DNA of 64,000 nt. Source: Bacillus sp. SJS (lineage in GTDB: Bacteria; Bacillota; Bacilli; Bacillales; Bacillaceae). A model generated the notes under the pieces. It worked only from the letters and a program-made list of their open reading frames with translations, was not told the DNA's origin and searched no databases. The position numbers and the translations under genes are program-made. The DNA lies in assembly GCF_000732485.2 (NCBI RefSeq), contig NZ_JAQV02000004.1:1-64000 (forward strand), read 5' to 3'. Every line of letters starts with the position of its first letter. Position 1 is the first letter of the stretch. This document shows positions 1 to 52,029 of the stretch, piece after piece.

Positions 1-73
1 AGGAGGCTCACCGCCCGCCCCGCTGGTCGCTGAGCGCCTGCTAACTGCAATCAACAGCCAAGTTTAACAGAGC
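1..73 (-). repeat. R1 repeat copy A, cut by window edge
   Basis: The minus strand reads from base 73 as GCTCTGTTAAACTTGGC, then TGTTGATTGCAG and AGCAGGCG, the same 5' half as the copies near 6.5, 19.4, 30.5, 41.3 and 50.8 kb. The rest lies left of the window. The terminal GAGC is immediately followed by the TAA stop codon of the TetR-type gene (74-76), with no spacer. Confidence 0.85.
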
Positions 74-649
74 TTAGTTCAAAGGATCAATTTCTCTTCT
101 AAGCATATGCCGGAGCAGCTGTTTTAAATGCAAATCGCTTTGCTCGGTTTTCTCATAATCAAGCTCGTAGGCGAAAATCATCCGAACGAGCATAAAAGCA
201 GTTAGCGGAAGAGGAACATGTGCATAATATCCTTGCTCCTGTCCTTCTCTTATCAATTTGCAAATAAGCTGGACCGATTCTTCCTCACCGCTTGTAAAGC
301 ACTTTTCAATTTCAGGAATCCGGTATTCCTTATATTCTTCAAATAAGGAAGAAACAAAAGAATCATGATGAATCTCTGCACTCAAGTACCTTAATATTTT
401 GCGCAGCTTTACAAGAATATCCTTTTCTGTCCTGTAGGCTTTAAAAGCTTCTGAACGGGTCTTTCTGATGTGACGCATATAGCAATCAAGGAGGATCTCA
501 TTTTTATCATTGTAATAATAATAGATTGTACCCTTCCCGATTCCTGCCTCTCCGGCAATTTTACTTAACGTAGTTCCCCTAAAGCCAAGGCTTGAGAAAA
601 GCCGTGTTGCTGATTGAATAATTTTCTCTTTTTTCCCTAAGTCCTTCAT
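74..649 (-). CDS. TetR/AcrR-family transcriptional regulator
   Basis: One-component DNA-binding repressor of unknown ligand, 191 aa, a normal length for the family. The N-terminal helix-turn-helix spans about residues 8-55, with the typical recognition-helix pattern GKGTIYYYY at 38-46 followed by K-x-E. Residues 60-191 are predicted helical and form the variable ligand and dimer domain, so the inducer cannot be read from sequence. The gene is divergent from the asparagine synthetase. The 291 bp between them carry four alternating GGTC/GACC half-sites in 20-bp steps, the best candidate operator for this protein. The helix-turn-helix looks like fatty-acid-type regulators (FadR/YsiA), but that is only an impression. 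Confidence 0.9.
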   Translation of the reverse strand: MKDLGKKEKIIQSATRLFSSLGFRGTTLSKIAGEAGIGKGTIYYYYNDKNEILLDCYMRHIRKTRSEAFKAYRTEKDILVKLRKILRYLSAEIHHDSFVSSLFEEYKEYRIPEIEKCFTSGEEESVQLICKLIREGQEQGYYAHVPLPLTAFMLVRMIFAYELDYEKTEQSDLHLKQLLRHMLRREIDPLN

Positions 650-836
650 TTACCGCACCCTTATGATAAAAGTCATGTGTGTTTCTCCATTATTGCCAAT
701 TATGGCAGAACAGTCAAATGCACAGTCTTGTCCCGCTCACTTGTCCATATTGGAAGTTTTTAACGAAGAGGAGGGACTTCTTTCGCTTTTTTGTCAGAAA
801 GGTTGCCAATCTATTCTGAAGGTTCTAACATATAAA

Positions 837-903
837 TATGACCAAATTCATCATTCGGTCGAATTTTTACTCTCATTTCGACCAATATAGATTTTTGGTC
901 GAA
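837..903. promoter_or_regulatory. Candidate operator array, four half-sites every 20 bp
   Basis: Half-sites TATGACC (837-843), GGTCGAA (857-863), TTCGACC (877-883) and GGTCGAA (897-903) alternate in orientation with an exact 20-bp step, giving dyad centres at about 850, 870 and 890. The last pair forms a perfect 9-bp inverted repeat, TTCGACCAA/TTGGTCGAA, with a 9-bp spacer. It lies in the divergent gap between the TetR-type gene and the asparagine synthetase, 38 bp before the latter's start. Binding by the adjacent TetR protein is inferred. Confidence 0.6.
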
Positions 904-940
904 AAAATCCAGATTAACTTTATGAAAGAAGGTCTTGAGA

Positions 941-2767
941 ATGTGCGGAATTGCAGGCTGGGCTGATTGGTCCAAAGAATTAATAGGTGAAAAAGACATT
1001 ATTCAAAGTATGACAAAGGCAATCACTCACAGAGGACCGGACGCAGATGGATTCTGGTACTCCGACCATGCCGTCCTTGGACACCGAAGACTCATTGTCA
1101 TCGACCCTGAGGGCGGACTTCAGCCAATGATCTATGAAGACACGAATCAGAAAATTGCTCTTGTCTATAACGGTGAGCTATATAATTACATTGAACTTCG
1201 TGAAGAATTGGAGAATAAGGGACATCTGTTTAAAACAAAATCTGACACAGAGGTTCTCATTCACGCTTATATAGAATGGAAAGAGGATTGCGTCCAGCAC
1301 TTTAACGGGATTTTTGCCTTCGGAATTTGGGATGATCATCTTAAAAAGCTTATGCTCGCCCGTGATCATCTTGGAGTTAAACCTCTTTATTTTGCAGAAC
1401 GCGGCCAATCCATTATTTTTGGTTCCGAATTAAAGGTTCTCCTGAAACATCCTTTAGTGGAAGCTGAAGTGACAGCTGAAGGATTATCCGAGGTATTCGC
1501 ATTAGGTCCCATGAGGACTCCGGGAAATGGAATTTTTAAAGATGTAAAAGAAATACGTGCGGGTCATTATGCGGTCTTTACGGCTGAAGGGCAAAAATCG
1601 GTCCGGTATTGGAACTTGAAAAGCGAGTCACATCGCGATGATGAGATTGCAACAGCCGAAAAAATAAAAGGACTGCTTGAAGATACGGTTAAACACCAGC
1701 TTATTGCTGACAGACCCGTTGTCTCCATGCTTTCCGGAGGCCTTGATTCCAGCGGCTTGACGGCAATCGCCGGAAAAGAATACGGAAGCAGAAATAAGGT
1801 TCTTCATACGTATTCGATTGATTTCGTTAACAACGATCAGGATTTTAAAGAGGATTTTCTTAGACGTGATAAAGATGAGCCCTGGGTAAAAAGAGTAGCC
1901 GAGCACGTTGGTACTGAGCATCATTCAATCGTTTTTGATGCTCAAAAGCTAGTAGACAATCTTCTTGTTCCAATGAGGGCAAGAGATCTTCCTGGAGTTG
2001 GTGAGATTGAAACCTCTCTCTACCTGCTGTTTGAAGAAATGAAAAAGGATGCGACTGTTGCCCTTTCTGGAGAATCCGCCGACGAAGTTTTCTCAGGATA
2101 TCCATGGTTTCACCAGGAAGAGTATTTGAATGCCGGACAATTCCCATGGCTTGTAAATCTGGGATATTTCACTGATATTTTATCCGATGAGGCAAGATTG
2201 AAACTGCAGCCTGAGGCTTACCGCCAAAAACGTTTTAAAGAGGCTGTTAACGAAGTTCCATTCCTCGAGGGCGAAAGTGAACTGGAAGCGAAGCAGCGCC
2301 AAATGTCCTATCTCTTTATCACTCGTTTCCTGCCATTTATGCTGGATCGAAAAGACCGGGCAAGTATGATGACCGGCTTTGAAGTGAGGGTCCCCTTTTG
2401 TGATTACCGGCTGGTTGAATACTTATGGAACGTTCCATTTGAATTAAAAAGCATAGATGGGATTGAAAAAGGAATTCTTCGCCGTGCATTTAAGGATTAT
2501 TTGCCGGATGACGTCCGCAACCGCAAAAAAAGTGCCTATCCAAGTACGAAGGATGACGCTTATCTCAAAGGCATCAGCAGCTGGATGACACAAATACTTG
2601 AGGATGAAGACGCCCCGATCCTTCCGCTAATCAATCAGGATCGGGTACGTGCCATCTCAAGAGGAGAAGACCAGGAAATACAAGGGGATAAAGCACGTGC
2701 CATCCTGGATTATCTTGTACAAATAAACGAATGGCTGAAAGAATACAAAATTAAAATCAGCCTCTAA
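941..2767 (+). CDS. asnB: Glutamine-hydrolysing asparagine synthetase
   Basis: Makes asparagine from aspartate, glutamine and ATP (EC 6.3.5.4). The ATG at 941 is chosen over the in-frame TTG at 935 because Cys2 (MCGIAG) must become the N-terminal nucleophile of the class II glutaminase domain; a Shine-Dalgarno AGAAGG sits 8 bases upstream. The glutaminase domain covers about residues 2-200 (HRGPD, YNGELYN). The synthetase domain follows, with the pyrophosphate loop SGGLDSS near residue 265 and a SGESADE motif further on. At 608 aa it is close in size to B. subtilis AsnO and AsnB; which paralogue it matches is not settled here. A terminator follows. Regulation by the neighbouring TetR-type protein is plausible. 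Confidence 0.95.
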   Translation: MCGIAGWADWSKELIGEKDIIQSMTKAITHRGPDADGFWYSDHAVLGHRRLIVIDPEGGLQPMIYEDTNQKIALVYNGELYNYIELREELENKGHLFKTKSDTEVLIHAYIEWKEDCVQHFNGIFAFGIWDDHLKKLMLARDHLGVKPLYFAERGQSIIFGSELKVLLKHPLVEAEVTAEGLSEVFALGPMRTPGNGIFKDVKEIRAGHYAVFTAEGQKSVRYWNLKSESHRDDEIATAEKIKGLLEDTVKHQLIADRPVVSMLSGGLDSSGLTAIAGKEYGSRNKVLHTYSIDFVNNDQDFKEDFLRRDKDEPWVKRVAEHVGTEHHSIVFDAQKLVDNLLVPMRARDLPGVGEIETSLYLLFEEMKKDATVALSGESADEVFSGYPWFHQEEYLNAGQFPWLVNLGYFTDILSDEARLKLQPEAYRQKRFKEAVNEVPFLEGESELEAKQRQMSYLFITRFLPFMLDRKDRASMMTGFEVRVPFCDYRLVEYLWNVPFELKSIDGIEKGILRRAFKDYLPDDVRNRKKSAYPSTKDDAYLKGISSWMTQILEDEDAPILPLINQDRVRAISRGEDQEIQGDKARAILDYLVQINEWLKEYKIKISL

Positions 2768-2770
2768 TAC

Positions 2771-2802
2771 AAAAGGTGTTCCGGGTTTCGGAACACCTTT
2801 TC
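2771..2802. terminator. Bidirectional terminator, asnB / chemoreceptor
   Basis: A 13-bp perfect stem, AAAAGGTGTTCCG with its complement, and a 5-base loop. T-runs on both strands serve the two convergent genes; the chemoreceptor stop codon starts one base later. Confidence 0.9.
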
Positions 2803-4581
2803 TTATTTTGCCAGTTTAAACTTGCTTGTCAGGCTTGAAAGCTCATTAGACAAACTGGTCAATTTGTTTCCAATCTCATGAGTGTGATTAATTTGAATCA
2901 TCTGCTCTTCAGAAGAGGCAAGCATTTGTTCCGCACTTGCTAGTGTCTCTTGGGAAACCGAAACGAAATTTTCAGTTGACTGCTCCATCAAAGGCATACT
3001 CTCCTGAAGAGAGTGCATATTGCTGTTCATCTCTTTTAGCTTCGCATTCACACTTTTCATTTCTTCCATTAGATGATCAAAGGAATACCTTGATTCTTCT
3101 GCTGCTGTTAAATGTGATTTCAGGCTGCTGTGGAGCTCTCCAAATTCATCCGTTGCTTTATTTGAAATATTCTCCATTTTCTGGACAGAGCCTTTTATTT
3201 CTTCTGCTGCTTTTGAGGACTGCTCGGCCAGTTTTCTGACTTCATTTGCCACGACTGCGAAACCTTTACCTGATTCCCCCGCCCTTGCTGCCTCAATTGC
3301 AGCATTCAATGCAAGCAATTTTGTCTGCTCTGAAACGGATTGAATTAAGCTGACAACTTTTGAAATAGAGCTGGAGTGGTTTTTTACCCCCCGTATCGTT
3401 TCATTCATTTTCTCGAATTCCAGTCCGAACTCATGAATTTCGCTGATCAAACCTGATATTTTTTTCTCTCCCTTGTCCGCTGACACATTCATTCCATCCG
3501 CACTTTTAAACAGGTATTCCATGCTTGTTAATGCCGTTCCAATTTCTTTCTTCATCTGATTGAACGCAGCCACGCTTGTTTCTGAGGTGGCAGCTGTCTG
3601 TTCTGCTCCCATTTTTACCACTTTGATAGCCTCCACAAGCTGTTCATTCTGATCCAGTACATCAGCTGAAGACTCGGTCAGTTCAGAGCCTGTATGCGAT
3701 AAGTCCAGCGTAGTTGAATTCATATTCGATATCATCGTTCGCATTTGAGCAATCATTTGATTAAAGCTTGCCACAAGCGATCTGATTTCAGGAATATTGG
3801 TTTTTATATTTGTTCCTGCATCAAGGCTTCCCTCTCTTACCTGTTTCATAACAAGTCTTAATTGGGACAGAGGCTTCGTCAGTCCTCTTACAAAAAATAC
3901 AATCAGCAGAGTAGCAATTAAAATGCTGATTGCTACTGTCCATGCAGTAAAATTCGCCAAGGAATAGATTGGAGCCAGATAACTCTCTGTCTCAACAGCG
4001 ATAATCAGAATGCCTTTTAGCTCCTGGATTTCTTTTATGGATAAAGTGTAGTCTTTCCCATTGATTTTTTTATGAACAATGGTCTGCTTTTCATTTTTTT
4101 TAAGGTCTCCTAATTCTTGATACTTAAGCTCTTCCCCGGTTCCTTCAAGCATCGTTACCTGCTGATCTTTCAAAAGATAAAAGTCTGCGTTCAGGCCATC
4201 CTGAATCAGCTGGCTGGACTGATTAGGCAAAACCGTTTTATTAAATCGCTTGCTGAAACCTTCTTCGTCCCCTATATATGCGAACATCAGATTACCGGCT
4301 ATTTCATTTGTTGTATTTACTTCCCGCTCTAGACGGTTCTCGATAATCGATATGGTCGTTTCTTTCGCCTTTTGATAAGAAGTGATACCGACTACTAATA
4401 CAGAGGTAACAAGTATGAATAGAACAAGTGCGATGATCCGTGTCTGAAGGCTAAAGCCATTTTTGATTCCGCTGAAATTTTTGCCAAAGCTGGAGGCTGT
4501 TTTCATCCATCGTTCCGATGACTGTTTTAAAGCAAGAAAAAATTGCCTATCTGGAAACCTTCTTAGCCATATTCGTTTCAT
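2803..4581 (-). CDS. Methyl-accepting chemotaxis protein
   Basis: Transmembrane chemoreceptor, 592 aa. A basic N-terminal stretch precedes TM1 (about residues 46-70). An extracytoplasmic sensor of about 140 residues, probably a single Cache-like domain, precedes TM2 (about 212-235). A HAMP domain with the Pro-Leu-x-x-Leu signature (KPLSQL) follows. The cytoplasmic signalling domain has the strongly conserved hairpin tip ([15 protein letters not shown] and [16 protein letters not shown]) that contacts CheW and CheA. The ligand cannot be told. It is single-gene and convergent with asnB. The 212-bp upstream gap is AT-rich; a clear SigD promoter was not found. Confidence 0.95.
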
Positions 4582-4820
4582 AAATGGAAAATTCTCCTTT
4601 TAAAGTACATATTGTGAAATGTAATTAAATTATCCCAAAAAAATATTAAGGAAGTGTAAATTTCACATTAATTTTTGCGATTTTTTGTCGAAAATTAGTT
4701 CTTTTATCATATATTATCTCCATTATTTTTCTTTATTTTAGGCATTTTGAATCCATCAGTTATGATTTCAGTTGGACAAGCATAGTATGAATTATGCCTG
4801 AAATGAAGGAAGGTCAGCCG

Positions 4821-5135
4821 ATGAAAAGACTCATTCTGCTGTGCTCGATTGCACTGCTCACATATATTATTTACTATGATTTAAGCAGGGGGACTCTTCC
4901 GAGAGCGGAGGAGGAGAACATAATGGCTGTATCACAGCCTGTAAAGAAGGAGACGTTTAAACAGCTTAGCGTTCAAAAAGGGGAATCCGTCCTTATCATC
5001 ATCAATAAGGTCAACGGCCATTCCATTCCTGTCCCCCTGGAAACTGCAGCCGAGGATTTTGAAAAACTCAATCCCGGAACAAAAGCGAACCGAATTCTAA
5101 CCGGACACTCCTATAAATTCCCTGTTTATGAGTAG
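4821..5135 (+). CDS. yqfZ: Small membrane-anchored LysM-like protein (YqfZ-like)
   Basis: A 104-aa protein with an N-terminal signal or anchor (KRLILLCSIALLTYIIYY) and an exported remainder. The C-terminal half (about 50-104) reads like a single LysM-type peptidoglycan-binding module: a V-Q-K-G-E start and FEKLNPG near the end. The ATG at 4821 is chosen over 4794 because GAAGGAAGG lies 7 bases upstream and the signal sequence starts there. Position directly before ispG matches yqfZ of B. subtilis. The CATAGTAT box near 4780 could be part of a SigE promoter, but that is weak. Confidence 0.7.
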   Translation: MKRLILLCSIALLTYIIYYDLSRGTLPRAEEENIMAVSQPVKKETFKQLSVQKGESVLIIINKVNGHSIPVPLETAAEDFEKLNPGTKANRILTGHSYKFPVYE

Positions 5136-5152
5136 CCGATTTGTCTATTTCC

Positions 5153-5182
5153 TTGTCAATACTGCTAAATGACTGATACAAT
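5153..5182 (+). promoter_or_regulatory. Probable SigA promoter of ispG
   Basis: TTGTCA (5153-5158), an 18-bp spacer and TACAAT (5177-5182), about 60 bp before the ispG start. Confidence 0.55.
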
Positions 5183-5242
5183 GTGATAGGAAAAGGTATC
5201 AATCTGGTTACCAAACCTATATGAATAAGGAGCGATCCACTC

Positions 5243-6355
5243 GTGGGTGAAATTACACATCGTACAAAAACTCGTCCTGTCAAAGTCGGTAATTTAACGA
5301 TTGGCGGAAGCAACGAGCTTATTATACAAAGCATGACCACAACTAAGACACACGACGTTGAAGCAACGGTTGCAGAAATTAACCGTCTTGAAGAAGCTGG
5401 CTGCCAAGTCGTCCGGGTTGCATGTCCGGATGAGCGCGCTGCAGACGCAATTTCCGAAATCAAGAAGCGGATAAACATTCCACTTGTCGTTGATATTCAT
5501 TTTGACTATAAACTGGCTCTTAAAGCCATTGAAGGCGGAGCAGATAAAATCCGGATTAATCCCGGAAACATCGGCCGCAAAGAAAAAGTAGAAGCTGTTG
5601 TTAATGCAGCAAAAGCAAAAGGCATTCCGATCCGTATTGGTGTGAATGCAGGATCTCTAGAAAAACGCATTTTAGAAAAGTACGGCTATCCGACTGCAGA
5701 TGGAATGGTTGAAAGCGCACTGCATCACATTAAGATATTGGAAGATCTCGATTTTCACGATATTATCGTATCGATGAAAGCTTCTGATGTAAATCTTGCG
5801 ATAGAAGCTTATGAGAAAGCTTCCAGAGCATTTGACTACCCCCTTCATCTTGGAATTACTGAATCAGGCACCCTGTTTGCAGGCACTGTAAAAAGTGCCG
5901 CCGGTTTAGGAGCCATCCTCCGTATGGGAATTGGAAATACCCTGCGCATCTCGTTAAGCGCGGATCCTGTTGAAGAGGTCAAAGTAGCAAGAGAGCTTCT
6001 AAAATCATTCGGACTTGCTTCAAATGCGGCAACGCTGATTTCATGTCCTACGTGCGGACGGATTGAAATTGACCTGATCAGTATCGCAAATGAAGTAGAG
6101 GAATACATTTCCACAATTAAAGCTCCGATTAAAGTAGCTGTGCTCGGGTGTGCTGTAAATGGCCCTGGCGAAGCACGGGAAGCCGATATCGGGATTGCCG
6201 GAGCGCGCAAAGAAGGATTACTATTCATGAAAGGGCAAATTGTTCGTAAAGTCCCTGAAGAAATCATGGTAGAAGAACTGAAAAAAGAAATCGATAAATT
6301 AGCGGAAGCTCATTACGCAAAGGAAGCAGCGGAAAAAGCGGAAGTTCAAGGCTAA
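5243..6355 (+). CDS. ispG: 4-hydroxy-3-methylbut-2-enyl diphosphate synthase IspG
   Basis: Penultimate step of the methylerythritol phosphate isoprenoid pathway: reductive conversion of MEcPP to HMBPP using a [4Fe-4S] cluster. 370 aa, the compact bacterial form. An N-terminal TIM-barrel starts with KVGNLTIGG and QSMTTTKT. The C-terminal cluster-binding region has CPTCGR and, later, [10 protein letters not shown], the latter the family signature. It starts with GTG at 5243 behind AAGGAG. The next pathway enzyme, ispH, is in the same window (14.7 kb). A strong terminator follows. Confidence 0.97.
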
Positions 6356-6361
6356 TCAAGA

Positions 6362-6410
6362 ATAGCTTCAGCGGCTCGTTCACCCTTCGGCCACTGGAGC
6401 TGGACAAGTC
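6362..6410. repeat. Possible R2 repeat relic
   Basis: A GC-rich stretch ending in GGAGCTGGACAA resembles the tail of the R2 units near 46.8 kb (GCAGCTAGACAA). It also contains a weak CTTCGG hairpin. It lies between the ispG stop and its terminator. The match is short. Confidence 0.3.
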
Positions 6411-6434
6411 AGAAATTTATACACACTTATGATA

Positions 6435-6475
6435 AAAAAAAACGGGCACTTCCCTATGGGAATGCCCGTTTTTCT
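6435..6475 (+). terminator. ispG terminator
   Basis: A stem AACGGGCA...TTCCC with its complement, a short TAT loop, A-run before and TTTTTC after. Confidence 0.9.
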
Positions 6476-6479
6476 TATT

Positions 6480-6550
6480 GCCTGTGTTAAAGCATGGTGT
6501 TGATTATTTAACACCTGCTAGCTGCAATCAACAGACAAGTTTAACAGAGC
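6480..6550 (-). repeat. R1 repeat copy B, short form with 9-bp target duplication
   Basis: On the minus strand it runs GCTCTGTTAAACTTGTC, TGTTGATTGCAG, AGCAGGTGTTAAAT, AATCAACACC, ATGCTTTAACACAGGC. Terminal arms and the inner TGTTGATT/AATCAACA arms are intact while the middle found in copy E is missing. It is flanked by the exact direct repeat TTTCTTATT (6471-6479 and 6551-6559). The right-hand repeat overlaps the stop codon of the next gene (6558-6560). Confidence 0.85.
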
Positions 6551-6557
6551 TTTCTTA

Positions 6558-6956
6558 TTAAAAGAATGGTGTTACAAACAGTCCCAGAATCACGGAAACT
6601 GCTCCAATTCCTATTGCCCAGGCTCCAAGGGTTTTAGCACCCTTTCTTCTCGCCACAAATCCAACAATTATTCCCACTGCTCCTAAGATAACGGGAAGAA
6701 GGAAAAGTGAAATAACGGAAAGAGCGATCGCTATATACCCGGTGGATCTGCCTTCAACAGCCCCATGACGGTCATCATCTGCCACGCGTTCCTCTTCACG
6801 GTATGAACCAATCGGAGGTGCGATTTCTGCAGCAGATTCTTCTCTATATTCACGGTGCTTTTCAATTTCCATTAGTTCATCACGGTTATTCAGACCATTA
6901 ACCTGATCTGAGTTCGTCATGTTGCCGTGATCTTCAAAGTGTCTTTCGTCTGCCAT
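6558..6956 (-). CDS. yqfX: Small membrane protein of unknown function (YqfX-like)
   Basis: About 132 aa. The first 75 residues are polar and charged (many Glu, Asp, Arg). Two hydrophobic helices follow (about 78-103 and 112-132) separated by a basic RRKGAK turn, so a cytoplasmic tail with a C-terminal membrane hairpin is likely. The start at 6956 is preferred because the longer frame from 6989 adds an unconserved stretch and AGGGGAAAGG precedes the later ATG. No enzymatic motif. The name rests on position between ispG and yqfW, as in B. subtilis. Confidence 0.75.
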   Translation of the reverse strand: MADERHFEDHGNMTNSDQVNGLNNRDELMEIEKHREYREESAAEIAPPIGSYREEERVADDDRHGAVEGRSTGYIAIALSVISLFLLPVILGAVGIIVGFVARRKGAKTLGAWAIGIGAVSVILGLFVTPFF

Positions 6957-7089
6957 TCCTTTCCCCTCACTTTCAGATATAAGGAGCATCCTTAGTATGC
7001 AGAAGGCGGTCCATAATTATGCCTTTATCCATTCTTTTTCTGCACTGCTTTGTGATACACTTGGAAAAGATCAAAAAAGGAGTGTCGGC

Positions 7090-7668
7090 ATGCTGCGTTT
7101 AGGGATTGATATTGACGGGACCATTACACCGCCAGAAACCTTTGTTCCATATTTAAACAAATCATTTAAAAAGCAAATAACCCTTGATGACATAAAGGAT
7201 TATGACTTGACGAAAGCTCTTGAAGTCAGCTACGAAGAATTGGGTCAATGGATGGCGGAATTTGAACCGATTATCTATGGAGAGGCTCCGGTTTCAAAAG
7301 GGGCAAAGGAAATTCTCGGTAAATGGAAAGAGAAGCATGATTTAATATTTATCAGTGCCAGAGGCCATCATCTCTATGATACGACCTTGAACTGGTTTGA
7401 AAAGAATGAGGTTTCGTTCCATAATATCGACTTAGTTGGTTCACATGACAAGCTTGAGGCCGTTAAGAAACACCGCATCGATGTGTTTTTTGAGGATAAG
7501 CATGATAATGCCTGTATGATTAGCGAGGAATTTAACATTCCAGTCATCCTTTTCAACACTCCATACAATCAGGATCCCGTTCCGGAGCAAGTCGTGCGTG
7601 TGAACAGCTGGTTTGAGGCAGAGGAATGGCTGGATCGCCGGGTACTTGAGCTAAAAGAGAATCGGTAA
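7090..7668 (+). CDS. yqfW: HAD-family 5'-nucleotidase-type protein (YqfW-like)
   Basis: A putative nucleotidase of the HAD superfamily, 192 aa. Motif I is DIDGTI at residues 6-11 (nucleophile Asp plus acid/base Asp). Motif II is ISARGHH in the middle. The late acidic motif is FFEDKHDNA. This pattern fits the NT5C-type 5'(3')-deoxyribonucleotidase family; the substrate is unproven. The ATG at 7090 is chosen because AAGGAG lies 6 bases upstream and the domain starts at once; the frame opens earlier (6997) without a ribosome site. Divergent from yqfX, convergent with zur. Confidence 0.85.
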   Translation: MLRLGIDIDGTITPPETFVPYLNKSFKKQITLDDIKDYDLTKALEVSYEELGQWMAEFEPIIYGEAPVSKGAKEILGKWKEKHDLIFISARGHHLYDTTLNWFEKNEVSFHNIDLVGSHDKLEAVKKHRIDVFFEDKHDNACMISEEFNIPVILFNTPYNQDPVPEQVVRVNSWFEAEEWLDRRVLELKENR

Positions 7669-7727
7669 TCGGTGATAAGAAATAGCGGTAATCTAAAAAT
7701 CCTGCTAAGAGGAAACGATTGAAATTG

Positions 7728-7770
7728 AAATCCCCGGAATGCTGTGTAAGCATTCCGGGGATTTGTTTTT
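7728..7770. terminator. Terminator after yqfW
   Basis: A 15-bp perfect stem (AAATCCCCGGAATGC and complement), a TGTGTAA loop and a T-run on the plus strand. The stem could also serve zur from the other side, 120 bp away. Confidence 0.85.
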
Positions 7771-7891
7771 CCAAAAATATTAAGGGATAGGCTAATTGCA
7801 GCGGAAGAAGCGAGAATTAAGCGTGAGTCAGTCAAAACAACTCCAATTAAAAGCGCAAGGAGATTTGAAACTCAGCTCCATTTTTTGTTTG

Positions 7892-8302
7892 TTAAATACA
7901 ATCAGGGCAGGTCCCATATATCTCAAATTTATGGCCGCTCACATCATAACCTTCAAGGTCATCTTTTAATTTATCCATTGGACATGAATGAAGTTCTTTC
8001 GTTTTCCCGCAGTCCATACAGATAAAATGGTGATGATGATGGGCATGGTTGCACGTGAACCTGAATTGTTTCTCACCGGATAGTTCAGTGGTCTCCAGAA
8101 TGCCCAGTTCAGCGAATAAGGATAAATTCCGGTATATTGTATCAAAGCTGAGACCGGGGTAGTTGGATTTCATGCTTTCAAGAACATCCCGGGCGGTTTG
8201 ATATTTATTGCAGTCTGCAAAGAAGGAAAGCATTTCTTCCCTCTTGTTTGTATATTTGTAGCCTGAATCTTTAAGCATTTGGAGCGCTTGCTCAATATTC
8301 AT
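7892..8302 (-). CDS. zur: Zinc uptake regulator Zur (Fur family)
   Basis: Zn-dependent repressor of zinc-import genes, 136 aa. An N-terminal winged helix (about 1-80, with [14 protein letters not shown] as the DNA-reading segment) is followed by a dimer domain with a His-rich HAHHHHH stretch. Two Cys pairs, CMDCGK and CPDC, build the structural zinc site. Assignment as Zur rather than Fur or PerR rests on its linkage to znuB and znuC. Its start overlaps the znuB stop by 4 bases (ATGA type), so it is the last gene of a znuC-znuB-zur operon that it probably represses itself. Confidence 0.92.
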
Positions 8303-19314: not shown

Positions 19315-19438
19315 CCAATCCCCCCTGAATGTTGAACACGCTTACATTATTATTATAAGAGGAAAGGAATATTTTCACAACTTTTTAAAAATTTAATATT
19401 TTTTCGCAAACTAACGTTCTTTCATTTTTATTATAAAA

Positions 19439-19526
19439 GCTGTTAAATTTGGCTGTTGACTGCAGTTAGCAGGCGTTCGCTTTCCACTCCAATCAACAAG
19501 TGTTTACAATCAATACCATGCTTTAA
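19439..19526 (+). repeat. R1 repeat copy C
   Basis: Plus orientation: GCTGTTAAATTTGGC, TGTTGACTGCAGTTAGC, AGGCGTTCGCTTTCC, ACTCCAATCAACAAG, CAATACCATGCTTTAA. The right terminal arm is eroded and no exact flanking duplication is seen, so this is an older copy. It ends about 3 bases before the stop codon of the 171-aa membrane protein (19529-19531). Confidence 0.85.
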
Positions 19527-19528
19527 TT

Positions 19529-20044
19529 TTAGAAAAGGAAAGAGCCAATTGAAAGCAAAATGCCTGCCAATCCAGCGATAAAAAAAGAACGCGTTTTAAA
19601 GCGAACAGCAAAAGTGATCCAGATGAAGCTATGTATAATGATGGCAATTGCGGAGGAAGGTCCTTTCGGCAGATGGGCTATGCCAATCCCTGTTAAACTA
19701 AGAAGCAATAGCAGCAGGAACAAGACCCCCATATAATAAAAAAACATCCTTTGGCCTCTGCTCATTTTCAATGCTGGAATCACACATATTACAAATCCTG
19801 TAAGAAGACTCATTTGCATTGGAGGATTCATTTCAGTAAAATAGACAAAAAGAGATGCAGGAAGTAGCAGCAGAATGATATAAGGCATTAATAAAGCGGA
19901 CCGCTTCTTTTTCTTTACCTGCTCCTCTTGCTTTCCGCCTGTGTATAAGGCTAGCAGAAAGTCACAATAGGTTTCCGGAAGCAGTTTGTTGATTTTCCAA
20001 TGCTTTATTTCATCGACGATTATTTGTTTTCTTTCACTATTCAT
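19529..20044 (-). CDS. Unrecognised integral membrane protein
   Basis: About 171 aa. The first 45 residues are soluble and contain LLPETYCDFLLALYTGG, probably the conserved core of its family. A KKKK stretch then precedes about six hydrophobic helices up to the C-terminus. I do not recognise the function. The ATG at 20044 is preferred over 20053 because GGGGA would directly touch the latter. It has no B. subtilis counterpart at this position. The gene is alone between sigA and the acyl-CoA dehydrogenase, with R1 copy C at its 3' end. Confidence 0.75.
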   Translation of the reverse strand: MNSERKQIIVDEIKHWKINKLLPETYCDFLLALYTGGKQEEQVKKKKRSALLMPYIILLLLPASLFVYFTEMNPPMQMSLLTGFVICVIPALKMSRGQRMFFYYMGVLFLLLLLLSLTGIGIAHLPKGPSSAIAIIIHSFIWITFAVRFKTRSFFIAGLAGILLSIGSFLF

Positions 20045-20390
20045 TGGTGCCATTCCCCATTTGTCATGTTATTCACCTTAAGGGTAAAGAAAAATTTCAG
20101 CTTTTTTCACCTGATAAGGATAAGCGGATGATTTTAAAAAACCAGTGATCGAGACCCTCATACTGCGGCCGCAGCTGGCTTTAAGATGAAAAGTAACATG
20201 GAAATTTTATCTTATAGCTATATTTTAATAATATTTATTTTGTTCGTAAATACAAATAAATTAGAAAGCGCTTTCCTTTTTTGTTTGATTCAGCAAACAT
20301 TGCATATAGTGGACTGGATATTTGGTCCCGTGCTTCATTACCAATCATGTTCGTTAAGAACAGCCATCTTCTGTAAAGAGACAAAAAAAA
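20045..20390. other. AT-rich gap upstream of the 171-aa membrane protein
   Basis: About 345 bp without a credible gene. It holds a 12-bp perfect GC palindrome (20163-20174) and the T-run of the sigA terminator at its right edge. No riboswitch-like structure was seen. Confidence 0.5.
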
Positions 20391-30452: not shown

Positions 30453-30524
30453 TTTTTGGCTCTGTTAAAATTGGCTGTTGATTGCAGCCGGCAGGTCTCA
30501 AATAACACCATGCTTTAACATGCT
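30453..30524 (+). repeat. R1 repeat copy D with 9-bp target duplication
   Basis: Plus orientation: GCTCTGTTAAAATTGGC, TGTTGATTGCAG, CCGGCAGG, AATAACACCATGC, TTTAACATGCT, an internally shortened form. Exact direct repeats AATTTTTTA flank it (30444-30452 and 30525-30533). The right-hand repeat ends with TTA at 30531-30533, the complement of the era stop codon. The five T and a G before GCTCTG are either element or filler. It lies within the era-yqzL gap. Confidence 0.85.
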
Positions 30525-30530: not shown

Positions 30531-31866
<1,336 letters not shown>

Positions 31867-41209: not shown

Positions 41210-41250
41210 CCAAAACTCGCTTTAAAGCTTAAGTTATCGCTTTTTAATTA

Positions 41251-41365
41251 GCTTTGTTAAACTTGGCTGTTGATTGCAGTTAACAGGCGTTCGCTTTCCG
41301 CGGGAGACTCGCCTTCCACTCCGATCAACAAGGGCTTAAAATCAACACCAGGCTTTAACAGAGCC
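41251..41365 (+). repeat. R1 repeat copy E, longest copy, 9-bp target duplication
   Basis: The most complete copy (115 bp). Terminal arms GCTTTGTTAAA (41251-41261) and TTTAACAGAGC (41354-41364) pair with one G-T. The inner arm TGTTGATT near 41270 can pair with AATCAACA near 41340 or, alternatively, with ATCAACA near 41325. The middle has TTCGCTTTCCGCGGGAGACT. Exact 9-bp direct repeats TTTTAATTA flank it (41242-41250 and 41366-41374). The right one ends with the complement of the deoC stop codon (41372-41374). Confidence 0.92.
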
Positions 41366-41371
41366 TTTTAA

Positions 41372-42043
41372 TTAATAATCAGACTGAGAGCTTCCTCCAC
41401 TGACAATGCTGATCCCGGCGCTTGCTCCAATTCGGGTTGCCCCTGCTTCAATCATAAGGTCTGCTCCAGCACGGTCACGCACTCCGCCAGATGCTTTAAC
41501 TCCCAGATCAGGACCGACTGTTTTTCTCATCAGACGGATGTCTTCAACCGTTGCTCCTCCTGTGGAGAAACCAGTAGAGGTTTTGACAAAGTCAGCACCG
41601 GCTTTAACGGAAAGTTCGCAAGCAAGTGTTTTTTCTTCATCTGTTAAAAGACATGTTTCAATGATTACTTTTGTTAAGGCTTTGCCTTTTGCTGCTTCTG
41701 TTACCGCACGGATATCTTTTTCTACCAGTTCTGCATCTCCATCTTTGAGAGCACCGATATTAATAACCATATCTACTTCTGCCGCACCCTTTTCGATCGC
41801 ATCCTTCGTTTCGAATGCTTTTGTTTCAGGTGTGGAAGCTCCTAGAGGAAAACCGATAACGGTACATACTTTGACATCTGTACCTTCTAAAAGACGGGCG
41901 CATGTTTCAACCCATGTTGGATTTACACAGACAGAAGCGAATTGATATTCTTTTGCTTCCTCACAAAGTTTTTCAATCTGAGCCTTTGTTGTGTCCGGTT
42001 TTAGTGCTGTGTGATCTATCATTTTTGCCATATTTTCAGTCAT
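41372..42043 (-). CDS. deoC: Deoxyribose-phosphate aldolase
   Basis: Class I aldolase splitting 2-deoxyribose-5-phosphate into acetaldehyde and glyceraldehyde-3-phosphate in deoxynucleoside breakdown, 223 aa. IDHTALKPD opening, the Schiff-base Lys in [11 protein letters not shown], a second Lys in [10 protein letters not shown] and GASAGISIV near the end. Ribosome site GAGGGG 8 bases upstream. Stands alone between mtaB and rpsU; the other deo genes are not here. Confidence 0.96.
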
Positions 42044-43580: not shown

Positions 43581-43586
43581 ATATCT

Positions 43587-44345: not shown

Positions 44346-44416
44346 AATCCCTCCACCCGCAGGTACTGAAAATTGAAAGGGGCGACTAAAAGAGCCGGCC
44401 CCGTTAACTGTAAAAA

Positions 44417-45370
44417 TCAGATGGCACTTTGTTCGCTTTTTCTTGCTATAAAAGCAACCCAGTCTTCCATGACAACCGTTTCCGAAATCTCAAACCCCGC
44501 CTTAATAAGCGCGTCTCTCACATCATTTTTCTTATTAAGAATGATGCCGGATGTAATGAACCATCCGCCCTCTTTTACGAGGTTGTAAGCTTCATCTGTA
44601 AACTTCAAGATAACCTCGGCCAATATATTCGCTACGATGACATCTGCTTGTTCGGAAATTCCGGAAAGCAAGTCGTTTTGAAAAACTTCAACCTTTCCAT
44701 TCACTTTGTTAAGGACTGTATTTTGCCTAGCACTTTCAACTGCCACTGGATCTAAATCCATCGCACGAACAGCTTCAGCGCCCAACAATGCAGAAGCGAT
44801 ACTGAGTACACCTGAGCCAGTTCCAATATCAATTACCTTGTCACCTTTTTTGACCGTACGCTCTAAGGCCTGAATGCATAGAACGGTTGTCGGATGCGTA
44901 CCCGTTCCAAAAGCCATACCAGGATCAAGTTCAATAATGAGTTCATCGGAATGAACAGGCTCATACTCTTCCCAGGTAGGAACGATGGTGAATTTTTCTG
45001 ATATTTTTACAGGGTGGTAATATTTTTTCCATGCAGTAGCCCAGTCTTCTTCGTTCACTTCGCTCGTCTTGAGCTGCTTTGATCCCAGATTAATCCCATA
45101 CTGAGATAATCCCTCAATAGAGTTTGTAATTCCTTCAACCGTTTCGGCTAAAAAGCTGTTCATTGGCAGATAGGCCTTAATGATGACCCCCTCAGCAGGG
45201 TAGTCAAGAGGATCGAGATGGTAGATTTCTCCATACACACTTTCTCTTTCCTTTAGCAGGTCCATTTGATCTTCGATTACGACACCGCTCGCTCCAGCTT
45301 CGTGTAGTATGTTAGAGATTGGTTCTACTGCTTCTTGTGTTGTATGGATACTGATTTCTGACCATTTCAT
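44417..45370 (-). CDS. prmA: Ribosomal protein L11 methyltransferase PrmA
   Basis: SAM-dependent trimethylation of L11 lysines, 317 aa. Short N-terminal substrate-recognition domain, then a Rossmann domain: [36 protein letters not shown] and VANILAEVI are the family hallmarks. Twenty-two bases after dnaJ; conserved as the distal end of the dnaK operon. Confidence 0.97.
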
Positions 45371-45392
45371 CCTCTGCCAACTCCTTCATATA

Positions 45393-46526
45393 TTAATCGC
45401 CTTTAATTGCTCGTTTTACTTTATCGAAGAAACTTTCTTCATTCTCATCAGGCAGGTTGCCGGTTATTTCAGCAAATTCTCTGATCAGTTCTTTTTGCTT
45501 TTCAGTGAGGTTTGTAGGTGTAACAACCCGCACAACAATATGCTGGTCCCCTTGTCCGTATCCTCTGACGTTCGGTATTCCTTTTCCTTTCAGACGGAAT
45601 TTAGTACCAGCTTGTGTTCCAGCAGGAACCTTCAGCTTCACTTTCCCCTGAAGAGTTGGAACTTCAATTTCATCCCCTAATGCTGCTTGGGCAAACGTTA
45701 GAGGCATTTCACAATATACATCGTCTCCATCACGCTCAAAGAAATCATGCTCCTGTATTTGGAATACGACATATAAATCTCCTGCCGGCCCGCCATTGAT
45801 TCCCGGTTCGCCTTGCCCTGAAACGCGAAGCTGCTGCCCGTCATCCACGCCTGCCGGAATGTTTACTTTTATTTTTCTGCGTTTCTTCACTGTTCCATCG
45901 CCGCCGCATGTGGAGCATTTATGCTTAATCATTTTTCCAGTACCACTGCAATAATGACAGACTCTGCGGTTAACGATACGGCCAAATGGTGTATTCTGCT
46001 CAACATTCAGCTGACCTGAACCTCCGCAGTGTGAACAGGTTTCCGGAGATGTTCCGGGTTTAGCACCTGAGCCGTGACAAGTATCACACGCTTCATCTCT
46101 AGGAATTTCAATTTCCTTTTCCAATCCAAATGCCGCTTCTTCAAACTTCAATGACATGGTGTATTGCAGATCAGCTCCCTGACGCGGGGCATTCGGATCT
46201 CTTCTCCGGCCTCCGCCTCCGCCAAAAATAGAACTGAAAATATCATCAAAGCCAAATCCGCCGCCAAAGTCTCCGCCTTGTCCGCCGAATCCGCCAAATC
46301 CCTGATTCGGATCCGTATGGCCGAATTGATCATAATGGCCGCGCTTCTGATCATCGCTTAAGATTTCATATGCTTCTTTTATCTCTTTAAATTTTTGATC
46401 GGCATCTGCCTCTTTATTAATGTCCGGATGGTATTGTTTCGAAAGCTTACGGTAGGCGCGCTTGACCTCCTCTTTCGAAGCATCCTTGCCGACGCCAAGT
46501 ACATCATAGTAGTCTCGCTTACTCAT
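45393..46526 (-). CDS. dnaJ: Chaperone DnaJ (Hsp40)
   Basis: DnaK co-chaperone, 377 aa, full type I architecture. The J-domain (1-70) has the HPD tripeptide in YHPDINK. A Gly/Phe-rich linker (about 75-115) follows, then four CxxCxGxG zinc repeats ([34 protein letters not shown]) and C-terminal substrate-binding domains. It is separated from dnaK by 490 bp that hold a terminator and the R2 repeats, an unusually long interruption for this operon. Confidence 0.97.
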
Positions 46527-46594
46527 AATCCTCTCACTCCCGAATTCTCACATAAAGTAAATTGTATCATTTTAAAGCACATTGTAGCAATAAC

Positions 46595-46895
46595 GAAAAG
46601 CGTAGGGCGCTTAAGTAAGGTTGTTCTGCTAAGACCGCGACGTCCTGCCGCAAAGCAGAACTGACCTGCCTCCTGCAGGCCTCAGTCTGGGGCATTGGAG
46701 CTTTTGACCGAGAGGCGCTCAAGTAAGGTTGTTCAGCTAAAAGCGCGACGTCCTGTCGCAACGCTGAACGAGCCTTCATCTTGAAGGCCCTCGACCGAAA
46801 AAGCGAAATGACCCTGCGGCACAGCGCCCGCAGCTAGACAATAAAGAAAAGCGTAGGGCGCTCAAGTAAGGTTGTTCTACTAAGACCGTTTCTTG
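46595..46895. repeat. R2 repeat, two tandem units plus a truncated third
   Basis: Units begin at about 46600, 46711 and 46850 with GGCGCTYAAGTAAGGTTGTTC. Unit 1 has arms GTTCTGCT (46623-46630) and AGCAGAAC (46654-46661); unit 2 has GTTCAGC (46731-46737) and GCTGAAC (46763-46769). Inside both is GCGAC-GTCCT-GYCGC. A further hairpin follows: CCTGC/GCAGG in unit 1 (46665-46679), GCCTTCA/TGAAGGC in unit 2 (46772-46788). The third unit keeps only the 5' arm. No coding potential; the rest of the dnaK-dnaJ gap is the dnaK terminator. Confidence 0.8.
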
Positions 46896-46961
46896 ATGTC
46901 CGCCCATTCCTTGTTTCTGCATCTTATTAAATCCCCGCTCTTTCCGTTCTTTTCTGTTCGT

Positions 46962-47001
46962 AAAAAAAGTCAAAGTCAAGGCAAGCCTGACTTTGACTTT
47001 T
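46962..47001 (-). terminator. dnaK terminator
   Basis: Minus strand AAAGTCAAAGTCAGG, CTTG loop, CCTTGACTTTGACTTT and a T-run, 17 bases after the dnaK stop. The stem itself is built from repeated GTCAAA units. Confidence 0.88.
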
Positions 47002-47017
47002 CTGGGTCGAAAACAGT

Positions 47018-48856
<1,839 letters not shown>

Positions 48857-48871
48857 TCAAGTTATGTACGC

Positions 48872-49459
48872 TTATTGACTTACTTTTACCATGGACGGGC
48901 GAATAACCCGGTCTTTCAATTTATAGCCCTTTTGAAACTCTTCAATGACCGTATTTGGTTCAAATCCCTCTTCTTCACCCTGCATAACAGCCTGATGCAA
49001 ATGAGGATCGAATGTTTTTCCTACAGTCTCGATTTCCTCTACACCTTCACTTTTCAGAGCTTGGACGAGCTGACGGTGAACCATTTCCATTCCTTGAAGA
49101 ATAGATTTAGTCTGTTCATCAGAAGCTTCTACCTTAAGAGCCCTGTCAAAGTTATCCAATGCCGGAAGAATTTCTGAGATCAGATTTTGCGCGCGGTATT
49201 TTTGGGCGGATTCAGCATCCATTCTTGCTCTGCGCTTATAGTTCTCAAAATCTGCCTGTACGCGGAGCAGCTTGCTTTCAGATTCCTCAACTTGTGATTC
49301 AAGGGAAGCAATCTTCTCTCTCGCTTCGCTTAGCTCGTCCGTTTCAGGCCCAGCTTCTGCAGTTTCTTCCTGAGAAAGAATCTCCTCTTCTGAAAGAGCG
49401 GATTTTTCTTCTGCTTCTTTTGCTAAATCACGTTCATTTAGATCTTTTTCATTTTCCAC
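48872..49459 (-). CDS. grpE: Nucleotide exchange factor GrpE
   Basis: DnaK co-chaperone, 195 aa. An acidic N-terminal stretch of about 50 residues, a long coiled coil (about 50-105, [25 protein letters not shown]) and a beta-wing ([22 protein letters not shown]). Starts with GTG at 49459 behind GGGAGGTG. Second gene of the hrcA operon. Confidence 0.96.
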
Positions 49460-49527
49460 AATCTTTCACCTCCCTTAAATGCATGAGAAAGGGGATGGGT
49501 TTTGCCAGTCCCCATCCTTCTTTTTTC

Positions 49528-49590
49528 AGGCCGTTTTCACAAATTCTAATGTCAGGAAACTGCATAGGGTGCGGTTAGAATAAACGGCCT
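49528..49590 (-). other. Stem-loop in the hrcA-grpE gap, possible processing site
   Basis: Arms AGGCCGTTT (49528-49536) with AAACGGCCT (49582-49590), and ATTCTAA (49543-49549) with TTAGAAT (49575-49581), enclose a 25-base loop, with a 6-base bulge on one side. No T-run follows, so it is not a plain terminator. In B. subtilis the dnaK operon transcript is cleaved between hrcA and grpE and a stem-loop protects the grpE-dnaK part; this structure sits in the same place. Confidence 0.55.
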
Positions 49591-49644
49591 GCACACAAGC
49601 AGCATACGTTTAATAAAAAGCTGCGTTAAAAAGCAAACTCATCT

Positions 49645-50676
49645 TCAGCTGTAATACTGATCAGACATCGCTTTTGAAAGTCCCCCTGCAACTTTTTGGA
49701 GCAAACTGACAACTCTTGAATATTCCATCCTGGTAGGACCCAGTATGGCTATCGTTCCGATTTTCTTTTCATCAATTGAATAATCAGCAGTAATCAGACT
49801 GCAGTATTCCATCGCAGTAATCTGATTCTCTTTCCCAATTGAAATGGATAGTCCGGAATCTTTGCTGCTCAATAATTTATAAAACAGCCGTTCCTCATCA
49901 ATCATCCTCAAAAGAGTTTTCACCTTTTCAAGGTCACTGAATTCCGGCTGATTCAGCATATTGGTTTTTCCGCCGAAAAAAAGCTTTTCCTGGTGATTCT
50001 TCGGCAGTAGACTGTCCTCAAAGCTTTGAAGGAACATTCCATAATTCTCAATATGCGTTTTTAATAGACTGGCTACTTCCTTGTACATTTTATCCTTAAG
50101 TTCAGAAAGTGAAACCCCTGATAGTCGTTCATTAAGGATATTGACGACTTTTTCCAAATCGCCTGGACGTATGCCTTCAGGAAGGGAAATCGGTCTGCTT
50201 TCAACATGTCCCGTATTCGTCACCATTATAGCAACCGCAGCATTTTCGCTGATTGGGATGATTTGCAAGTGTTTAAGCTGATTTTCATTCACTTTTGGCC
50301 CAAGCACAATGGTCGTGTAGCTGGTCATATCAGAAAGGATCTGAGCAGACTTCTGGACCATTTTCTCCAGTTCAAAGATCTTTTCCTCAAAAAGAGATTT
50401 GATCATTCGAACCTCATTGCTTGCCAGTCTTTTAGGAGACAGCAGATGATCAACGTAATACCTGTAGCCTTTCTCTGAAGGTATACGTCCTGAAGAAGTG
50501 TGCGGTTTTTCAATAAAGCCCAATTCTTCGAGATCTGCCATTTCATTCCGAATGGTAGCTGAGCTAAAAGATATCTCTTCTTTCTTGGACAGGGTTCTGG
50601 AACCGACAGGCTGAGCTGACTGGATGAAGTCATCAACAATTACCTGCAAAATCAGCAATTGACGATTAGTTAGCAT
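49645..50676 (-). CDS. hrcA: Heat-inducible repressor HrcA
   Basis: Class I heat-shock repressor acting on CIRCE operators, 343 aa. An N-terminal winged helix ([18 protein letters not shown] ... [16 protein letters not shown]) is followed by a GAF-like and dimerisation part. Needs GroE for activity in B. subtilis. First gene of the operon, directly behind its own CIRCE element, so autoregulated. Confidence 0.97.
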
Positions 50677-50691
50677 CTGTCATCACCTCTG

Positions 50692-50718
50692 TTAGCACTC
50701 GTAGTTGCTGAGTGCTAA
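50692..50718. promoter_or_regulatory. CIRCE operator of the hrcA operon
   Basis: Perfect TTAGCACTC-N9-GAGTGCTAA, 16 bases before the hrcA start. Confidence 0.97.
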
Positions 50719-50728
50719 TACTATTTAC

Positions 50729-50757
50729 AAATTATCAAAACAGAAAAGAAAAGTCAA
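50729..50757 (-). promoter_or_regulatory. SigA promoter of the hrcA operon
   Basis: Minus strand TTGACT (50757-50752), 17-bp spacer, TAATTT (50734-50729), immediately upstream of CIRCE; GATAAT with a 15-bp spacer is an alternative -10. Confidence 0.6.
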
Positions 50758-50785
50758 TTCAAAAGTCTTCTTTTTTTATGGTGTA

Positions 50786-50880
50786 GCTCTGTTCCACTTG
50801 ACTGTTGATTTCTACAGAAGGCGTTCCCTTTCCGCTCCAATAAACAGGTCTTTTTAAAACAGCACATGGCTTTACCATGC
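50786..50880 (+). repeat. R1 repeat copy F, diverged
   Basis: Plus orientation: GCTCTGTTCCACTTGAC, TGTTGATTTCTACAG, AAGGCGTTCCCTTTCC, GCTCCAATAAACAGG, ACATGGCTTTACCATGC. Arms and spacing match the other copies, but several bases have changed and no flanking duplication remains. Six bases separate it from the hemW stop codon (50887-50889). Confidence 0.8.
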
Positions 50881-50886
50881 CTGCGG

Positions 50887-52029
50887 TTAAGAAAGCCCTA
50901 TAAATGACTGGAACACCTCATTGCCGAGAAGCCTGCCCTGAACGGAAAGAAAGATGCTTGACTCATCTTCTTCAAGGAGTCCTTTTTGCTTTTGCTCGTT
51001 TATTGGGCTTTTAAAAACATCCGTCAGTTCCTGACCGAATTTTTGTTTAAATACTTGCTTGCTGACACCTGCAGTTTTACGAAGACCGAGGAATAGCTCT
51101 TCTTCCATTCGTTCAGCTTCCGTTACTTTATGCCTTGTCGTTATAGGGGAACCCGACTCATCAATCAATGACATGTACTTCTTCAAAGGACCGGCATTTA
51201 CTTCCCTCATCCCATTTACGTACCCGTGAGCTCCTGCGCCAAAACCAAAATATTCTTCATTATTCCAGTATGTCAGGTTGTGCAGGCTTTCCATACCAGG
51301 CAGGGAAAAGTTGCTGATTTCATATTGATTAAAGCCGGCTTGCCTCATTCTGGACATTAAAAGCTCATACATGCGAGCTTCTTCTTCCTGAGGGGGCAGA
51401 GGAAGCCTGCCTTTTTGCACAAGATTATAAAAAACGGTTTTTGGTTCAATAATCAGCGAATAGGCGGAAAAATGCTGAACATCAAGAGCCAATGCCAAAT
51501 CCAGCGTTCGCTCAAAATCTTCTGCAGTCTGTCCTGGAAGACCAAACATCAAATCAATGCTCAAATTATCAAAACCGGCTTTTTTCGCATCCTCGACTGT
51601 TCTAAGCACGTCGTTCTTACGGTGCACTCTGCCAATTTTCTCGAGCAGACTGTCTTCAAAACTCTGGACCCCTATACTGAACCGATTGACTCCAAAGCTT
51701 TTAAGAAGTCTCATTTTCTCGTAGGAGAGATCCCCCGGGTTTGCCTCAACCGTAAACTCAATGTTCTTATTTGAAGGAAGAAGGTGACGGCTGATTGTAG
51801 TCATAAGCTGTGTAAGCTGTGCCTCATTCAACGCTGTCGGAGTTCCTCCGCCGATAAAAATGGTATCAAGCTCCTGTTTATCGTGTGTTTGCATTACCCG
51901 GACAATTTCCGTTTGCAAATAGTCAAGATACAATTCCACCGGCTGGTTTTGGATGAAGATCTTATTAAAATCGCAGTAATGGCAGATGTATTCACAGAAT
52001 GGGATATGGACATAGGCTGCTTTCACCAT
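50887..52029 (-). CDS. hemW: Radical-SAM haem chaperone-type protein HemW
   Basis: Long annotated as oxygen-independent coproporphyrinogen oxidase (HemN); HemW proteins instead insert haem. 380 aa. The radical-SAM motif is CEYICHYCDF (CxxxCxxC), near the N-terminus. HNLTYWNNEEYFGFGAGAHG contains the HNxxYW motif associated with HemW haem binding. The extra HemN cysteine is absent (F follows CHYC-D), which supports HemW. ATG 52029 has AAAAGGAGAG upstream. Downstream of lepA. Confidence 0.93.
   Translation of the reverse strand: MVKAAYVHIPFCEYICHYCDFNKIFIQNQPVELYLDYLQTEIVRVMQTHDKQELDTIFIGGGTPTALNEAQLTQLMTTISRHLLPSNKNIEFTVEANPGDLSYEKMRLLKSFGVNRFSIGVQSFEDSLLEKIGRVHRKNDVLRTVEDAKKAGFDNLSIDLMFGLPGQTAEDFERTLDLALALDVQHFSAYSLIIEPKTVFYNLVQKGRLPLPPQEEEARMYELLMSRMRQAGFNQYEISNFSLPGMESLHNLTYWNNEEYFGFGAGAHGYVNGMREVNAGPLKKYMSLIDESGSPITTRHKVTEAERMEEELFLGLRKTAGVSKQVFKQKFGQELTDVFKSPINEQKQKGLLEEDESSIFLSVQGRLLGNEVFQSFIGLS

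Follow-up and report, generated by a model that had tools for sequence, protein, structure and literature searches.

Six copies of R1 in the window

The window analysed here is the first 64 kb of contig C4 from a draft genome of 4.15 Mb in 36 contigs, and it carries six copies of a small repeat, R1, next to genes. A preliminary description of this DNA proposed that R1 inserts at a defined place beside a TAA codon, or is selected to stay there. This raises the question of what kind of element R1 is and why it lies where it does.

All six copies are real and lie at or near the positions first described, and all six are found 3′ of a minus-strand gene. Copy A (1..73, plus strand) is truncated by the contig start, which leaves the right part of a longer element, and abuts the stop of a TetR-type gene (74-649, minus strand); a longer copy is present at this site in G076, a genome of the same species. 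Copy B (6481..6550, plus strand) is a short form flanked by an exact 8-bp duplication, TTCTTATT (6472-6479 and 6552-6559), which overlaps the stop TTA of the gene at 6558-6956 on the minus strand. Copies C (19437..19538) and D (30459..30520), both on the minus strand, are short forms with decayed right ends, the former at the stop of the gene at 19529-20053 (minus strand) and the latter beside the era stop (30531-31439, minus strand). Copy E (41251..41364, minus strand, 114 nt) lies at the deoC stop, which is overlapped by an exact 8-bp duplication, TTTTAATT (41242-41249 and 41366-41373). Because G076 carries the full long form of 182 nt at the same site, copy E is probably a deletion form. 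Copy F (50786..50881, minus strand) is a diverged short form beside the hemW stop (50887-52029, minus strand).

The element-to-stop gaps first given hold for copies A (0 nt) and B (7 nt), while that of E is 7 nt, or 6 counting an extra terminal C. The gaps of C, D and F vary with where the decayed right ends are drawn (-10 or 2, 35 or 10, and 5 or 9 nt, respectively). Likewise, the names TetR-type, Era, DeoC and HemW are supported, but yqfX is not confirmed by name, the candidate matching CrgA weakly and under the cut-off. In the family search, the 174-aa gene beside copy C has no hit.

When a 209-kb region is compared between the window genome and G076, 10 of 11 elements match up in both order and strand. 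Several draft contigs start or stop in or at R1 (position 1 of the window, C34:1, C19:1 and the end of C3), and the assembly therefore probably breaks at the repeat.

The Rfam hits in the window are two Bacillaceae-1 RNAs, away from R1. They lie at 46613-46679 and 46721-46787 within 46588-46888, with a third repeat beside them at 46839-46888, and at least five of the genus's six genomes have stretches like this one at other places.

Genome-wide census of R1

The genome contains 57 occurrences of the seed GCTCTGTTAAA, compared to 2 of a reversed control. Searching 73 stretches of the genome (405 kb) with a profile gave at least 82 R1 elements or fragments, a lower bound, as the stretches were picked by exact seeds and by two genome searches with the best 40 candidates each; 15 of the 57 seed occurrences fall outside these 82. 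Long forms measure around 182 nt, and short forms, which are missing the middle, around 70-115 nt. Three same-strand copies stand in a row within 630 nt at C23:131365-131994, and a pair is found at C31:441710-442074 (loci L055 and L075).

Placement was counted for the 73 of 82 elements with both neighbours called. Genes were called with our own ORF caller, in which no gene may extend across an element; genes interrupted by R1 would therefore be missed in these counts. A stop lies within 10 nt of 14 of the 73 elements and within 60 nt of 44, compared to 10.9% and 41% of uniform gene-sparing positions; the other 59 are farther than 10 nt. Copies B, C, E and F of the window are among the 14, D was scored as 35 nt and A has no left neighbour. 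Outside the window, 14.7% of 68 copies are within 10 nt of a stop. Thus the stop-codon rule, which describes all six copies in the window, weakens across the genome, and the six-of-six pattern is best taken as local clustering within a trend that is real but less strong. The companion claim that no copy abuts a gene start stands: none of the 73 is within 20 nt of a start, where uniform placement would give 19%.

R1 is a new MITE with an unusual conserved core

The two ends of R1, GGCTCTGTTAAAG and GCTCTGTTAAAC (with mostly A outside end 2), are inverted repeats, as first described, but are not fully identical. Among 36 two-ended copies, the 8-bp flanks are identical in 16 and agree at 7 of 8 positions in 4. 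This level of 7/8 or better, seen for 20 of 36 true pairs, was reached by 21 of 1260 mispaired flanks. The remaining 16 copies match at 6/8 or less, which we put down to decay or wrong end calls. For cores in named genomes elsewhere, the corresponding counts are 42 of 101 and, for mispaired flanks, 26 of 1005. The ninth flank column agrees in 21 of 36 copies, with around 22 of 36 expected from the base make-up of both sides; as this is chance level, the duplication length is 8, and a 9-bp duplication was dropped.

Empty sites are found in related genomes. Of the C4 elements, 7 of the 8 that are assessable are absent at the orthologous place in the sister species G073 (three others are not assessable), with a single target copy left at the cleanest sites, B, E and F; the others diverged more. 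The sites of copies B and D are empty in G073, that of C has no element in either G073 or G077, and those of E and F are empty in both. The preliminary description was right to see in R1 a small element that inserts, is bounded by inverted repeats and favours one kind of site.

R1 is a new MITE of the IS1595 kind, and the conserved core that it carries is unusual. REP/BIME units are palindromic repeats without target duplication, and membership in that class was ruled out on account of the R1 duplications. In the literature searched, which takes in few subscription papers, we found neither a description of the R1 family nor a paper printing the core sequence strings, and a review of prokaryotic MITEs mentions neither IS1595 nor Bacillus in its available text (PMC10969869).

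IS1595 elements of the genus share the R1 ends

A transposase of the IS1595 type (PF12762) is encoded at 11 loci across six genomes of the genus. The end search on these loci, run without a chance control, gave two kinds of ends. Three elements (L133, L136 and L141) have GGCTnTGTTAA-type ends and exact 8-bp duplications, and their ends differ from the 12-nt R1 end by 0-2 bases. Five others (L131, L132, L134, L137 and L139) have a second end type resembling GGCTGTTTTCGTA, GGCTCTTTTCGTA or GGCTGTGTTCGTA, also with exact 8-bp duplications. For L135, L138 and L140 the search found no pair of inverted ends and duplications.

Because the ends and the 8-bp duplications are alike, an IS1595 transposase of the genus most likely mobilised R1 in trans. 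In E. coli, a composite transposon of the IS1595 family creates duplications at AT-rich sites of 8 bp, according to the available part of a report with 23 mapped sites (PMC7835479). The IS1595 element of the window genome itself, L141, looks decayed, with its transposase split into two ORFs, and this counts against our explanation.

A decayed IS1595-like remnant is also seen at L063 (1990-2304), where a GGCTCTGTTAAA end is followed by an ORF that, by eye, resembles the C-terminal part of an IS1595-type transposase.

The core is a hairpin found between two end types

The core of R1, its middle ~126 nt (TTGATTGGAG...CGGAAATCAA), has a wider distribution than the R1 ends. In a family search the long form was matched in 36 of 80 genomes, many of the listed matches covering only positions ~36-163, and a 37-nt core pattern was found in at least 118 stretches. 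The 80 core loci listed come from Peribacillus, Metabacillus, Cytobacillus, Gottfriedia, Neobacillus, Fictibacillus, Mesobacillus, Rossellomorea and other genera. Among plasmids there were 17 matching records, from Priestia, Peribacillus, Bacillus, Paenibacillus, Radiobacillus, Niallia and Planococcus; the phages and viral contigs searched gave no match.

The core folds as one long imperfect hairpin (z of -4.9 for the long form). Covariation was examined in 34 sequences, hand-picked from 49 non-redundant sequences among 65 complete cores and leaving out mostly diverged or deleted ones. For a 45-pair structure, 93.6% of cells are paired and 21 of the 45 pairs show double changes, compared to 9.3 in shuffles and 5-9 when the structure is slid, although the structure was drawn from members of the same set and is thereby favoured over its slid versions. 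Covariation is no proof of RNA function here, as gene conversion between the hairpin arms could also keep the match. Rfam covariance models gave no match at E up to 1 for six loci with long forms or cores, and no terminator-like site was found in and around the one long R1 copy scanned.

For 151 complete cores, both arms are R1-type in 43, both are of the second type in 38, 7 are mixed and 63 are partial only. The same core therefore occurs between two end types, and both are represented among the IS1595 elements of the genus. One exchange of frames looks recent: the L217 core is 97.7% identical to that of L236, and their arms appear unrelated. Repeated swapping was not retained, as a quick tree of 77 rows gave 3 changes and a single switch was not rejected.

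An IS110/IS1111-type element interrupts the core at one point

An IS110/IS1111-type element, whose protein families are PF01548 and PF02371, splits four R1 copies at or near contig ends of the window genome (C5:78056, C28:25291, C21:1214 and C31:363), in each case at the same point in the apical part of the core. The genus has nine matches to the protein, one of which (31% identical) was left aside. In all eight loci examined (86-100% identical; L287-L292, L294 and L295) the R1 core is broken at the same point, with the break visible on one side only in L287 and L290 being a short remnant.

Downstream of the transposase gene lies a noncoding region of 401 nt, within which GCCTCCTC complements the target top strand, a match equalled by 11 of 500 shuffles, uncorrected for eight tests. 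For the other seven of the eight expected guide matches, 77 to 491 of 500 shuffles do as well. Behind GCCTCCTC, CCGAG matches the left side of the target (by eye), and this arrangement follows the guide order of IS1111-type seekRNAs as given in the available text of PMC11187229. We therefore predict, from sequence matches, an RNA guide that would direct the element to the R1 core.

R1 is mostly oriented along transcription between codirectional genes

Between codirectional genes, 77 of 104 pooled R1 copies share the strand of the genes (p about 1e-6). The bias was first noticed in the window genome (35:10) and then sought elsewhere; by set, the counts are 34:10 in the window genome, 32:15 in the named genomes elsewhere and 11:2 in G073 and G077. 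Leaving out four Metabacillus loci of the named set, the pooled count is 76 of 102 and the count elsewhere 31:14, with no place counted twice there. The duplication-proven subset elsewhere, taken alone, gives 15:9, which is not significant. Convergent and divergent gaps show no bias, whether judged against local GC skew (35:31) or against the strand on which the other genes lie (35:30). Our most likely guess is that the bias comes from selection on the transcribed strand.

A rival reading is that R1 is kept at 3′ ends as a domesticated regulatory repeat, its transcript acting in the stability or processing of 3′ UTRs. The bias in all three genome sets and the covarying hairpin are in line with this idea. 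However, the empty sites in G073 show that single copies are not kept that far, counter-selection against one orientation equally explains the bias, and the duplication-proven subset does not reach significance. In addition, the scanned copy has no terminator-like site. A strand test of G-U versus A-C pairs (110 versus 81, with one dominant pair set aside) speaks for neither side. Overall, we consider domestication unlikely.

Less plausible is an effect of replication direction rather than transcription. In its favour, gene strand and local GC skew disagree within codirectional gaps in just 7 of 104 cases, and R1 agrees with the skew in 80. Pneumococcal repeats, as described in the available text of PMC3049150, are 61-63% on the leading strand, mirroring the coding bias. 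Nonetheless, codirectional gaps differ from the unbiased convergent and divergent ones (Fisher p 0.008), and at a scale of a few kb GC skew is a poor stand-in for replication direction. Replication is weakened as a cause of the bias and rather improbable.

Selection on the transcribed strand would fit into a broader picture, which we advance tentatively and regard as doubtful in its entirety: the ~126-nt hairpin may be a passenger of two IS1595-type MITE frames that differ in their ends, spread through many Bacillaceae genera, selected on the transcribed strand between codirectional genes and serving as an address for an RNA-guided IS1111-type element. Three mobile systems would then meet on a single hairpin.

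Target preference accounts for most of the placement beside stops

A target model was trained on 42 insertions of this core that duplications prove and that lie in named genomes, one of them Metabacillus, and applied to element-free C4 with gene-breaking positions excluded. An earlier model trained on the flanks of R1 itself gave a similar answer but was partly circular, and was replaced. The preference can be written TTT-W8-AAA: the octamer is A or T at nearly every position, the three bases preceding it are T, and most of the three that follow are A.

The model predicts 24% of copies in convergent gaps (uniform placement 10%, observed 33%), 84% of codirectional copies closer to the stop (uniform 50%, observed 71%, 32 of 45), a stop within 10 nt for 23% (uniform 11%, observed 19%) and within 60 nt for 68% (uniform 41%, observed 60%), and a start within 20 nt for 1.6% (uniform 19%, observed 0%). 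We infer that Metabacillus mangrovi belongs to the genus of the window genome, since IS coordinates and scores are identical in G075 and in G083, which holds the M. mangrovi locus L176; without the Metabacillus row (41 rows) the same measures are 24, 85, 23, 68 and 1.6%. The model is imperfect: the codirectional value falls under its prediction (p 0.02), the convergent value is somewhat over it (p 0.08), and the orientation bias is left unexplained. In their own genomes, the training insertions (40 duplication-proven cases) show a weaker stop bias, with 15 of 24 codirectional copies closer to the stop and 6 of 40 within 10 nt of one; a start lies within 60 nt of 27.5% of them and within 20 nt of none. 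The preliminary description set the stop-codon idea against a random expectation for the distances to stops; they match it for most measures when the null is sequence-matched and depart from it when the null is uniform.

Some stop-facing flanks hold a terminator-like site between the stop and the element: 21 of 36 for flanks of 30-60 nt and 0 of 12 for flanks of 0-12 nt, where such a site lies beyond the element in 4 of 12. For comparison, such a site lies within 70 nt of 43 of the 204 C4 genes that have no R1 beside them, and of 2 when shuffled. Just behind an intrinsic terminator is a second common location of R1.

A TAA codon as the target is thus superfluous, as a sequence-only model trained elsewhere predicts most of the stop-side placement, and targeting of stop codons as such was set aside. 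That R1 directly targets the stop codon or the context of translation termination is highly improbable. In favour of it, the window copies lie 0-10 nt from a stop, the genome-wide count within 10 nt exceeds the uniform value (p 0.025), and in copies B and E the duplicated octamer shares bases with the stop triplet. However, a TAA is AT-rich in its own right, the model already gives more than is observed within 10 nt, most copies lie farther away, many of them behind a terminator-like site, and few of the proven insertions elsewhere are close to a stop.

Stop-side placement instead follows largely from target preference together with a presumed loss of harmful copies. Such loss is suggested by the model itself, since gene-sparing positions hold 39% of its weight. 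In the mechanism we propose, R1 (~182 nt, with short forms of ~70-115 nt), bounded by GGCTCTGTTAAA and TTTAACAGAGC, would be mobilised in trans by an IS1595 transposase and favours an AT-only octamer with T's before and A's after it. In this genome, the target sites that spare genes cluster at gene 3′ ends, in the stop codon and in the T-tract of intrinsic terminators. Copies breaking genes or landing in promoters would be lost, and preference and loss combined would leave R1 beside stops and not beside starts. Taken as a whole, an IS1595-type MITE with AT-octamer targeting and loss of harmful copies is very probably the right explanation.

A testable rule, TTT-W8-AAA plus loss of harmful copies, thus supplants the idea of stop-codon targeting, and this rule may extend to other AT-targeting elements in low-GC Firmicutes. 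In addition, the R1 core, which is shared under two end types, biased in orientation and used by a second element to land in, offers a natural test for selection on a MITE core, either as RNA or as a DNA target.

Comparison with known systems

R1 resembles the pneumococcal BOX, RUP and SPRITE repeats, which are small, have MITE features and strong folds, and show a strand bias with coding; SPRITE is strongly enriched near the 3′ ends of convergent genes. The partners proposed for these repeats, in contrast to R1, are IS630-Spn1 and ISSpn2 (all from the available text of PMC3049150), and the terminator-like tail of SPRITE, a hairpin followed by a T-run, was not found in the R1 copy scanned. The bcr1-bcr18 repeats of the Bacillus cereus group, compared by description and not by sequence alignment, are likewise interspersed and intergenic, some being MITE-like and some having a conserved structure, and occur in UTRs (PMC3446304, available text).

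As a landing site, the R1 core recalls REP as the site of ISPa11 and attC as that of ISKpn4, where a dispersed folded repeat is the specific site of an element with a DEDD transposase (available parts of PMC11187229 and PMC1525189). The long noncoding region downstream of the gene is also a feature of IS1111-type elements (PMC11187229, available text). Unlike the ISPa11 and ISKpn4 targets, R1 is itself a MITE with inverted ends and duplications, and the guide function is a prediction.

R1 is also close to IS1595 elements and the MITEs derived from them, as it has a terminal sequence near-identical to that of three PF12762 elements and 8-bp AT-rich duplications. It differs from IS1595 elements in carrying, in place of a transposase, a conserved hairpin that is also found between the second end type.
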